Under the pieces are notes generated by a model. It made no database searches. It saw nothing but the letters and a program-made list of their open reading frames with translations, and was not told the origin of the DNA. From Pseudomonas sp. SORT22 (GTDB lineage Bacteria; Pseudomonadota; Gammaproteobacteria; Pseudomonadales; Pseudomonadaceae): DNA of 64,000 bases. Where the stretch lies: assembly GCF_018417635.1 (NCBI RefSeq), contig NZ_CP071007.1:5146501-5210500 (forward strand), read 5' to 3'. Below are positions 40,478 through 42,994 of this stretch, piece after piece; the first letter of the stretch is position 1; each line of letters starts with the position of its first letter. A program made the translations under genes and the position numbers.

Positions 40478-40507
40478 ATTACCGCTGCCCGAGCATGCTG
40501 GTATGAT
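40478..40507 (+). promoter_or_regulatory. Predicted azgA promoter with extended -10
   Basis: TTACCG (40478-40483) and TATGAT (40502-40507) are 18 bases apart, with TGG directly before the -10 (an extended -10, TG-N-TATGAT). Transcription would start near 40514, giving a leader of about 100 bases before the azgA start codon. Confidence 0.55.
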
Positions 40508-40514
40508 GCGCGGC

Positions 40515-40616
40515 TTTTTTCCGACCCAGGGAAAAACCACAGTCTCCCGGTACAGTCTGTGCTTTGCTAACTGGGTCGATACATTCACGGCGCCGGGAGC
40601 GCCACGGGGAGCAGGC
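40515..40616 (+). ncRNA. Structured azgA leader, candidate translational switch
   Basis: The leader can form three helices. P1 is CGACCCAG (40522-40529) with CTGGGTCG (40571-40578). P2 is CACAG (40538-40542) with CTGTG (40557-40561), inside P1. P3 is GGCG (40589-40592) with CGCC (40600-40603). The P2 loop contains CTCCCGG (40544-40550), the exact complement of the entire seven-base P3 loop CCGGGAG (40593-40599). The same CTCCC can instead pair with the Shine-Dalgarno GGGAG (40607-40611). This allows mutually exclusive loop-loop and loop-SD pairing. No ligand class is recognised with confidence. Confidence 0.55.
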
Positions 40617-41912
40617 ATGCTGGAAAGGCTGTTTCAACTAAAAGCACACGACACCAATGTCCGCACCGAGATTCTCGCGGGCGTGACCACCTTCCTGGCC
40701 ATGGCCTACATCCTGTTCGTCAACCCGAGCATTCTCGGCGAGACCGGCATGGACAAGGGCGCGCTGTTCGTCGCCACCTGCCTGGCAGCGGCGATCGGCT
40801 CGACCACCATGGGCCTGATCGCCAACTACCCGATCGCTCTGGCACCGGGCATGGGCCTGAACGCCTTCTTCACCTACACCGTGGTCCTGCACATGGGCCA
40901 CACCTGGCAGGTGGCATTGGGCGCGGTGTTCATCTCGGCGGTGTGCTTCTTCCTGCTGTCGATCTTTCGCATCCGCGAATGGATCGTCAACAGCATCCCG
41001 TTGCCGCTGCGTTCGGCAATTGCCGCCGGTATTGGCCTGTTCCTGGCGCTGATCGCCCTGCATAACGCCGGCATCGTCGTCGATAACCAGGCCACCCTGG
41101 TGGGCCTCGGTGACCTCAAGAAACCGGCGCCGATCCTCGCCACCCTGGGTTTCTTCCTGATCGTCGCGCTGGAGGCCATGAAGGTCCGCGGCGCGGTGCT
41201 GATCGGCATCCTGGCGGTGACCGTGGCCTCGATCGCCCTGGGCGTGACTCCATTCAACGGCGTGGTGTCGATGCCGCCGTCGCTGGCGCCGACCTTCCTG
41301 CAGCTGGACATCAAGGGCGCGCTGGACGTCGGCCTGATCAGCGTGATTTTCGCCTTCCTGTTCGTCGACCTGTTCGACAACTCCGGCACCCTGATCGGCG
41401 TCGCCAAGCGCGCCGGCCTGATGCGCAAGGACGGCCACATGCCGAAAATGGGCCGGGCGCTGATCGCCGACAGCACCGCGGCGATGGCCGGTTCCCTGCT
41501 GGGTACCTCGACCACCACCAGCTACATCGAATCTGCAGCCGGCGTCAGCGCCGGTGGCCGCACCGGCCTGACCGCCATCGTGGTGGCTATTCTGTTCCTG
41601 CTGGCGCTGTTCTTCGCACCGCTGGCCGGCAGCGTGCCAGCCTTCGCCACGGCACCGGCGCTGTTGTTCGTCGCCGTGTTGATGGCTTCGGGCCTGGCTG
41701 AAATAAACTGGGACGACATTACCGAAGCCGCGCCGGTGGTGGTCACTGCCCTGGCCATGCCGCTGACCTACTCGATCGCCAACGGCATCGCCTTCGGTTT
41801 CATTGCCTGGACCGCGATCAAGCTGCTTTCCGGCCGCGCCCGTGACCTCAACGCGGCACTGGTGATCCTCTCGGTCCTGTTCGTCATCAAACTGGGCTGG
41901 TTCAACGCATGA
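40617..41912 (+). CDS. AzgA-family adenine/guanine/hypoxanthine permease
   Basis: A 431-residue inner-membrane purine permease of the AzgA/GhxP branch, starting [20 protein letters not shown] with GGGGAG 6 bases upstream. Signatures are [20 protein letters not shown] (about 22-41), [17 protein letters not shown] and [15 protein letters not shown], plus [20 protein letters not shown], all strongly conserved in the family. It overlaps trmA by 4 bases. Its leader RNA is unusual (see 40515-40616). Confidence 0.93.
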
Positions 41913-42994
41913 GTGCTGTCTTCGACCCTTCGACCTACACCCAGCAGCTCGACGCCAAGGTCGCGCGCCTGCGCGAGCTGCTGGCGCCGTTCGCGGCGCC
42001 CGAGCCTGCGGTATTCGACTCGCCGCGCGAGCACTATCGCCTGCGCGCCGAGTTCCGCCTGTGGCGCGAAAACGAGCAGCGCTTCTACGCGATGTTCGCC
42101 CCGGGCGAGAAACACACGCCGATTCTGATTGAAGACTTCCCGATTGCCAGTCTGCAGATCAACGACCTGATGCCACGGCTCAAGGCCGCCTGGCAAGCCA
42201 GCTCGGCGTTGAGCTTCAAGCTGTTCCAGGTGGAGTTCCTCACCACCCTGGCAGGCGATGCAATGATCACCCTGTGCTATCACCGTCCGCTGGACGAGCA
42301 CTGGGAGCGCGCCGCGCAGCAACTGGCCAGCGACCTGGGCGTGAGCATCATCGGCCGCTCCAAGGGCAAGCGCGTGGTGATCGGCCGCGATTACGCAGTC
42401 GAAGAGCTGCAGATTGCCGGGCGCACCTTCCGCTACCGCCAGCCTGAAGGCGCCTTCACCCAGCCTAACGGCGCGGTCAACCAGAAGATGCTCAACTGGG
42501 CCTATGAAGCCCTGGGCGAGCGCCAGGACGATCTGCTCGAGCTGTACTGCGGCAACGGCAACTTCACCCTGCCGCTGGCCACCCGGGTGCGCAAGGTACT
42601 GGCCACCGAGATCAGCAAGACCTCGGTCAATGCCGCCCTGCACAACCTCGACGACAACGCTGTGGATAACGTGCGCCTGGTGCGTCTGTCGGCTGAAGAG
42701 CTGACCGAAGCGCTGAACGAAGTGCGTCCGTTCCGCCGCCTCGAAGGCATTGACCTCAAGAGCTACCAGTTCGCCAGTGTGTTCGTCGACCCGCCGCGCG
42801 CCGGCATGGACCCGGATACCTGCGAGCTGACCCGGCGCTTCGACAACATCCTGTACATCTCCTGCAACCCGCAAACCCTGGCGGCCAACATCGCCCAGTT
42901 GCACGACACCCATCGCATCGAGCGCTGTGCGTTGTTTGACCAGTTTCCGTATACCCATCACATGGAGAGCGGGGTGTTGCTGGTTCGCCGTTGA
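41909..42994 (+). CDS. trmA: tRNA (uracil-5-)-methyltransferase
   Basis: A 361-residue SAM enzyme making m5U54 in the T-loop of tRNAs. The SAM motif is [16 protein letters not shown], the catalytic cysteine is C319 in YISCNPQTL, and the general base is E353 in HHMESGVLL. Its ATG overlaps the azgA stop (ATGA), so it is translationally coupled to the permease and would be affected by any control through the azgA leader. Confidence 0.96.

Follow-up and report, generated by a model that had tools for sequence, protein, structure and literature searches.

The azgA locus and its upstream region

The window, which is the whole stretch of 64,000 nucleotides of Pseudomonas sp. SORT22 analysed here, carries azgA, a gene for a purine-type permease, followed by trmA. 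These genes and the features read in the azgA upstream region, all on the forward strand, are the following:

40499-40507, forward strand: extended -10 promoter TGGTATGAT (-10 hexamer TATGAT at 40502-40507), conserved in relatives
40508-40520, forward strand: G+C-rich discriminator followed by a six-T run (GCGCGGC TTTTTT), read from the sequence
40522-40529, forward strand: P1a 5′ strand CGACCCAG, predicted to pair with 40571-40578 (8 bp); swap test
40534-40536, forward strand: P1b, an AAA facing the UUU of the box in the minimum-energy fold of the hairpin region
40538-40561, forward strand: P2 hairpin, CACAG 40538-40542 with CTGTG 40557-40561 (5 bp), of variable sequence among species
40558-40568, forward strand: nearly invariant box UGUGCUUUGCU in the 3′ strand of the hairpin, identified by its conservation and sharp information edges
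40571-40578, forward strand: P1a 3′ strand CTGGGTCG, partner of 40522-40529; swap test
40589-40603, forward strand: P3 hairpin GGCGC-CGGGA-GCGCC, found by a stem search immediately before the Shine-Dalgarno sequence
40606-40612, forward strand: Shine-Dalgarno sequence GGGGAG and a following C that is conserved among representatives
40617-41912, forward strand: azgA, an open reading frame matching Pfam Xan_ur_permease PF00860 (E 2e-59)
41909-42994, forward strand: trmA, matching NCBIfam TIGR02143 trmA_only above cut-off and overlapping azgA by 4 bases

The gene name azgA is that given by the original prediction; the protein matches no NCBIfam model at E≤1e-10. Its relatives align with it from residue 1 at 40617, where the ATG lies, and the nearest named AzgA proteins are those of Pseudomonas sp. 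BBP2017 (98%) and of a P. putida strain (97%). The window's genome also encodes an azgA paralogue of 56% identity (G000:C1:4198843-4200117).

The extended -10 element is conserved in the 67 unique leaders compared first and in many divergent ones, and the sequence TATNATGCGCSSCTTTT occurs a single time in the whole genome, here before azgA. Since the element ends at 40507, transcription should start upstream of P1, probably near 40511-40514. The discriminator and T-run are present in most leaders compared, and in part they recur in those other families that lack the box. In several Halomonas-type azgA upstream regions (L337-L355) that lack the box, the end of the -10 element and the initial T-run (GCGGCTTTT) resemble those of the window. 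A T-run at the transcription start could permit slippage control. A sigma-54 promoter was considered and rejected, the required GG (columns -7 and -6) not being conserved.

A near-invariant box in a drifting leader

The most conserved part of the leader, to which the original prediction did not point, is UGUGCUUUGCU at 40558-40568. While nearly the whole leader drifts, including the flanks of the box and the P2 and P3 loops, this 11-nt sequence does not. It is found exactly in 105 of 149 unique azgA upstream regions of the family and within two mismatches in 121 (one mismatch in 6, two in 10, three or more in 28), a count that is biased because many of these regions were found by DNA similarity. 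Among protein-anchored loci, the box is present within two mismatches in 27 of the 30 loci L185-L214, and in 9 of the 28 loci L155-L182, mostly from other genera. None of 25 azgA regions from other families of the order has it within two mismatches. Across 35 clusters at ≤80% identity, which were preselected for GCTTTGCT with at most one mismatch, information reaches 1.3-2.0 bits per base within the box against at most 0.61 in the flanks, which gives it sharp edges. A run of at least three A precedes the box in 20 of the 35 cluster representatives. Near-variants such as L083 and L085 carry an altered box and, when L191 is compared with its relative L194, the stretch of about 10 nt that holds the box is missing before azgA, as a natural loss.

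Base pairing in the leader

In single-sequence folding, the stability of 40515-40640 is unexceptional (z -1.33) and its minimum-energy fold lacks P1. Pairing was judged by comparison. The leader set comprised 166 sequences, of which 125 had GCTTTGCT (at most one mismatch) and the promoter, and 41, such as L083 and L085, were set aside; the 125 correspond to 112 unique leaders and to 35 clusters at 80% identity. Because the register of P1 slides, and because the sequence alignments A2 and A3 misplace the sliding P1 strand, we relied on a swap test, in which the duplex formed by the two arms of one leader is compared in energy with duplexes that use arms of other leaders.

P1, predicted as 8 bp between 40522-40529 and 40571-40578, is present in the sequence and gained strong comparative support from this test. 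In the 30 of 35 clusters in which more than 36 nt of leader precede the box, cognate P1a arms reach -10.86 against -7.95 for swapped ones (z -6.6, 0/20000), and on all 35 clusters -11.08 against -8.33 (0/20000). Controls gave z -1.2 and -1.9 with reversed arms and z -1.3 and -0.6 with other regions, and the signal persists (z -3.0, 56/20000) when the test is restricted to 14 leaders with identities of ≤65%. Unrelated P1 stem sequences surround the same box, for instance in L001, L077, L094, L186 and L200. By this comparison, P1a is maintained by compensatory base change.

The 5-bp P2 stem predicted within P1 is likewise there (40538-40542 with 40557-40561). Its swap signal (z -3.7) is mostly one of base composition, since the reversed control comes close (z -3.0), and P2 is best described as a putative local hairpin of variable sequence. 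The pairing of the 5′ arm with the box (P1b) is weakly better with own than with swapped arms (875/20000). In unconstrained folds of the hairpin region, P1a, an internal loop, the AAA:UUU step and P2 recur in many clusters, and the fold differs in L084, L087, L126, L167, L171, L187 and others.

Alignment-based counts are mixed. In A4, a model-fitted alignment of 81 matches from 87 sources (one of them on the opposite strand of L164) that leans to structure, 69.5% of cells pair against 28.5-51.4% in slid versions, and the P1b columns (AAA:UUU) are paired in 85.3% of cells. The covariation score is 0.120 against 0.100 in shuffled alignments (6/500 shuffles) and double-changed cells number 22 against 12.6 (1/500 shuffles), both in an alignment that favours structure; the number of pairs with a double-sided change does not exceed that in shuffles (5 against 5.3, 407/500).

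P3 was predicted with 4 bp. The hairpin stands, with a stem of 5 bp (GGCGC 40589-40593, GCGCC 40599-40603) around the loop CGGGA; owing to the extra pair 40593-40599, two of the seven bases assigned to its loop close the stem instead. A stem score of at least 12 is reached in 24 of the 35 clusters and 11 fall below; the stem ends 12-16 nt before the ATG and exists in relatives in versions such as GACGC/GCGTC and GGCGTC/GACGCC. The mean score is 12.5 against 9.6 for shuffled sequences, and 14 of the 35 clusters reach ≤5 of 100 shuffles. The P3 hairpin thus appears moderately supported by comparison. Of the helices proposed for comparison in orthologous leaders, P1 is strongly supported and P3 moderately so, the signal of P2 reflects mostly composition, and the loop-loop helix is not maintained. 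Altogether, the core of the leader RNA would be one long imperfect hairpin made of P1a, the AAA:UUU step and a variable P2.

Distribution

A DNA search with 40490-40640, of which 24 bases are coding, finds matches at E≤0.01 in 377 of 398 genomes of the genus. From 70 loci, 61 unique leaders were aligned after duplicates were dropped, and divergent ones were added by model and by AzgA protein. With the hairpin-only model R2, matches at E≤0.01 were obtained in 256 of 298 genomes of the genus, a single one in each except G231 (two). In 40 chosen genomes, 29 of the 35 R2 matches at E≤1 lie directly before azgA, namely all 27 below E 0.02, whose values are in fact under 0.014, and two weak ones; the other six have E 0.16-0.99. 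Among 274 genomes of the class, R2 matches only the window's own. Weak hits of another model, R1 (89 nt), in other genera were rejected as instances of the motif elsewhere: they fall within a coding frame, presumably that of an ABC-F ATPase, and R1 hits at the class level (14 of 229 genomes at E≤0.1, its own included) are at about chance level.

Among 80 named loci, 48 have the box within two mismatches: 45 titled Pseudomonas and three labelled gamma proteobacterium or Gammaproteobacteria bacterium. The box is absent from the leaders examined in Halomonas, Billgrantia, Vreelandella, Marinobacter, Marinomonas, Marinobacterium, Denitrificimonas, Stutzerimonas and Tatumella, and also from some Pseudomonas-titled ones; within the family, the genera lacking it mostly have short leaders. 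Two leaders of azgA paralogues from other genomes (L183, L184) have no box either. By these sequence searches, the element, so far found in Pseudomonadaceae, is lineage-specific.

Gene order does not follow the box. Indeed, trmA comes after azgA in relatives both with and without it, and several genera have azgA-trmA without the element, which must therefore be dispensable there. Autoregulation by TrmA was rejected, the box and trmA showing no link. One member of the genus, L209, lacks trmA in the 1.5 kb or so that follow azgA, and its best box match has three mismatches. In an enterobacterial record, Tatumella ptyseos (L323), AzgA is 79% identical to that of the window and the leader element is absent; horizontal transfer of this AzgA is possible.

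Comparison with known RNA classes

In the open journal literature searched, we found no description of this leader. Against Rfam 15, cmscan of 40495-40640 returned two chance-level matches (E 1.1 and 4.3); a wider search of 6.5 kb at E≤5 gave nothing relevant (three matches, E 0.56-3.7), and neither did the leaders of 8 divergent relatives at E≤1, among which the one match (E 0.19) is to a leucine leader model on the other strand and off the leader (L085 592-687). The original prediction had left open a known xanthine (NMT1) or guanine-type class, and no model of a known purine riboswitch class matches the leader.

Purine transport genes are typical targets of guanine-type riboswitches, which form a three-way junction with conserved kissing loops. 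The azgA leader differs in having no such junction, and the guanine-type model is absent among the Rfam matches to the leader, the 6.5 kb and the 8 relatives. The NMT1 model, which we take to be contained in the library searched, was not matched either (E≤5 in 6.5 kb, E≤10 in the leader, E≤1 in the 8 relatives). In the accessible text of PMC7373994, NMT1/xanthine-I is a hairpin with an internal bulge where nucleotides are conserved; it is associated with genes of purine oxidation, and platforms that sequester the ribosome-binding site have been proposed for it. The azgA leader resembles it by its hairpin with conserved nucleotides and its link to purines; it differs in its association with azgA only, the reported NMT1 genes being others.

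Other likenesses, as far as the accessible parts of the sources go, are the following. In the pnuC motif (NAD+-II), two stems flank an internal bulge of conserved bases before a transporter gene, with possible pairing to the ribosome-binding site (PMC8632094); the azgA leader shares the stems, bulge and transporter, but precedes another gene and has no Rfam match to it. The guanidine-II riboswitch has two hairpins proposed to kiss (PMC7544219), which is the idea of the original prediction; kissing is not conserved in the azgA leader. The rmf and gabT motifs are limited to the Pseudomonas lineage (PMC2864571), a lineage-limited occurrence that the azgA leader shares, but they precede different genes and neither is among the Rfam matches to the window's leader. 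In the accessible text, a term search found Pseudomonas, permease and azgA 0 times each in PMC11109978 and PMC8632094, and permease 0 times in PMC2864571, where nothing on an azgA leader was found.

Alternative explanations

The original prediction proposed that the P2 loop either kisses the P3 loop, with P3 acting as a decoy, or masks the Shine-Dalgarno sequence. In the window, CTCCCGG of the P2 loop is indeed the exact complement of CCGGGAG, and GGGAG of the Shine-Dalgarno sequence lies at 40607-40611. Such a 7-nt match is rare among swapped P2/P3-loop pairs (0.1%). However, it occurs in only 2 of 97 unique leaders with P3, L001 (identical to the sequence in the window) and its sibling L003; the longest match is 6 in two leaders and 5 in five, a spread overall like that of swapped pairs (6 in 2.0%, 5 in 6.1%). 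Own duplex energies are no better than swapped ones, either for P2 with P3 (-12.14 against -12.52) or for P2 with the Shine-Dalgarno sequence (-11.85 against -11.81; 31 leaders each), and P3 loops vary (GGG, CGGGC, GAGG, AGT, ATTTG and others). By comparison, the match is unusual as a single event and is not maintained. The counts and swap tests thus lead us to reject kissing and masking as a conserved device; there is hardly any chance that it operates as proposed, and it would be at most a peculiarity of the window's closest relatives. Masking might instead be the task of the box itself, which, once freed from the 5′ arm, would pair with GGGAGC, so that P1 formation would turn translation on. 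The C after GGAG is found in 28 of the 30 box cluster representatives having GGAG (of 35), and GGAGC in 28 of 35 box clusters; of the family leaders recorded as having no intact box, 2 of 22 contain it, and of the leaders from other families 0 of 22. The count of the C is confounded by relatedness, and the box leaders L194, L203, L214 and L301 lack GGAGC. When the 5′ arm is removed in silico, the mean pairing of the box region with the Shine-Dalgarno sequence is 0.53 (at least 0.5 in 17 of 30), and exchanging the extra C lowers it from 0.55 to 0.36 (28 leaders). However, it is only 0.02 in full leaders ending at the ATG, shuffled boxes are nearly equal (0.48 against 0.53, and 0.31 against 0.33 with 12 coding bases), and the cognate box with its flank is not better than swapped ones (2412 and 5024 of 20000). 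We do not claim masking by the box, because shuffled boxes pair nearly as well, and consider this mechanism improbable. No common partner of the Shine-Dalgarno sequence emerged from full-length folds of the 35 clusters with 30 coding bases: at a probability of at least 0.5, it pairs with early azgA codons in 7, including the window (0.88), with the 5′ arm in 6, with the box in 2 and with the stretch between in 1. Two further candidates were discarded: UUUGCU pairing with AGCAGR after the Shine-Dalgarno sequence, which fits the window's own group while other clades have AGCC and the like, and a short upstream open reading frame (GTG CTT TGC TAA in the window, by eye), whose frames and stops differ between clades.

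The box could also be recognized in trans, by a protein or by a small RNA, two situations that would look alike in sequence. An RNA-binding protein could read the 11-nt strand in a weak helix, the hairpin being an operator through which azgA or trmA is repressed or activated. A protein site would be in keeping with one uninterrupted, sharply bounded box, and in the L085/L086/L093 group the 5′ strand shows changes that partly match the box variants (by eye), so that the RNA may be read in its folded form. TrmA is not favoured as the binder, since trmA follows azgA in many leaders without the box, and we regard an operator of this kind as unlikely. Pairing with a conserved trans-acting small RNA, which would open or close the hairpin, would agree with an ungapped stretch of 11 nt, but about 50 nt separate the box from the start codon that follows, no consistent fold links it to the Shine-Dalgarno sequence, and the exact 11-mer occurs at four places in the genome, that is in the azgA leader and at three others, one within a coding frame; this makes a small RNA target quite improbable.

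Proposed function of the azgA leader

Altogether, the comparison indicates that a real, conserved, structured and lineage-specific leader RNA precedes azgA; as to its function, we infer the following. As expected of a cis-regulatory leader, the element keeps its position between the promoter, as recognized by sequence, and the Shine-Dalgarno sequence before one gene family, and P1a shows compensatory base changes, with mixed alignment counts. The regulation of azgA by RNA, as originally predicted, is thus plausible, given that the leader is a structured and conserved RNA. We tentatively propose, with somewhat less than even confidence, that the region of about 40511-40616 is a cis-acting leader whose hairpin senses a purine or purine-derived metabolite and changes translation. 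The folded hairpin, with its near-fixed strand UGUGCUUUGCU and with P3 beside the Shine-Dalgarno sequence, would act as the sensor, a purine or purine-derived metabolite would be the most likely ligand, and the state of the sensor would alter the translation of azgA and, by coupling where the genes overlap, that of trmA.

In P. aeruginosa, we take PA4719 to be the counterpart of azgA, from its synteny with trmA. In growth tests, PA4719 was associated with the uptake of hypoxanthine and guanine (accessible part of PMC11633122), which makes purine sensing the simplest guess for its apparent counterpart here. The association being with azgA alone, the class of ligand rests on one gene.

It is more doubtful, though possible, that this sensor hairpin represents a new class of riboswitch, restricted to Pseudomonadaceae and to azgA, whose pocket would consist essentially of a single 11-nt strand of the imperfect hairpin. 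The conserved bases of a riboswitch pocket are usually spread over several strands, and the conserved sequence here lies almost all on one, which counts against a purine-sensing hairpin in general.

If the proposal of a purine-sensing leader is correct, a conserved control element without a match in Rfam would govern hypoxanthine/guanine-type uptake across much of Pseudomonas. As an orphan riboswitch candidate, it would leave few ligands to be tried. Direct tests would be eased by the near-invariant box, and the species without it offer natural comparisons.
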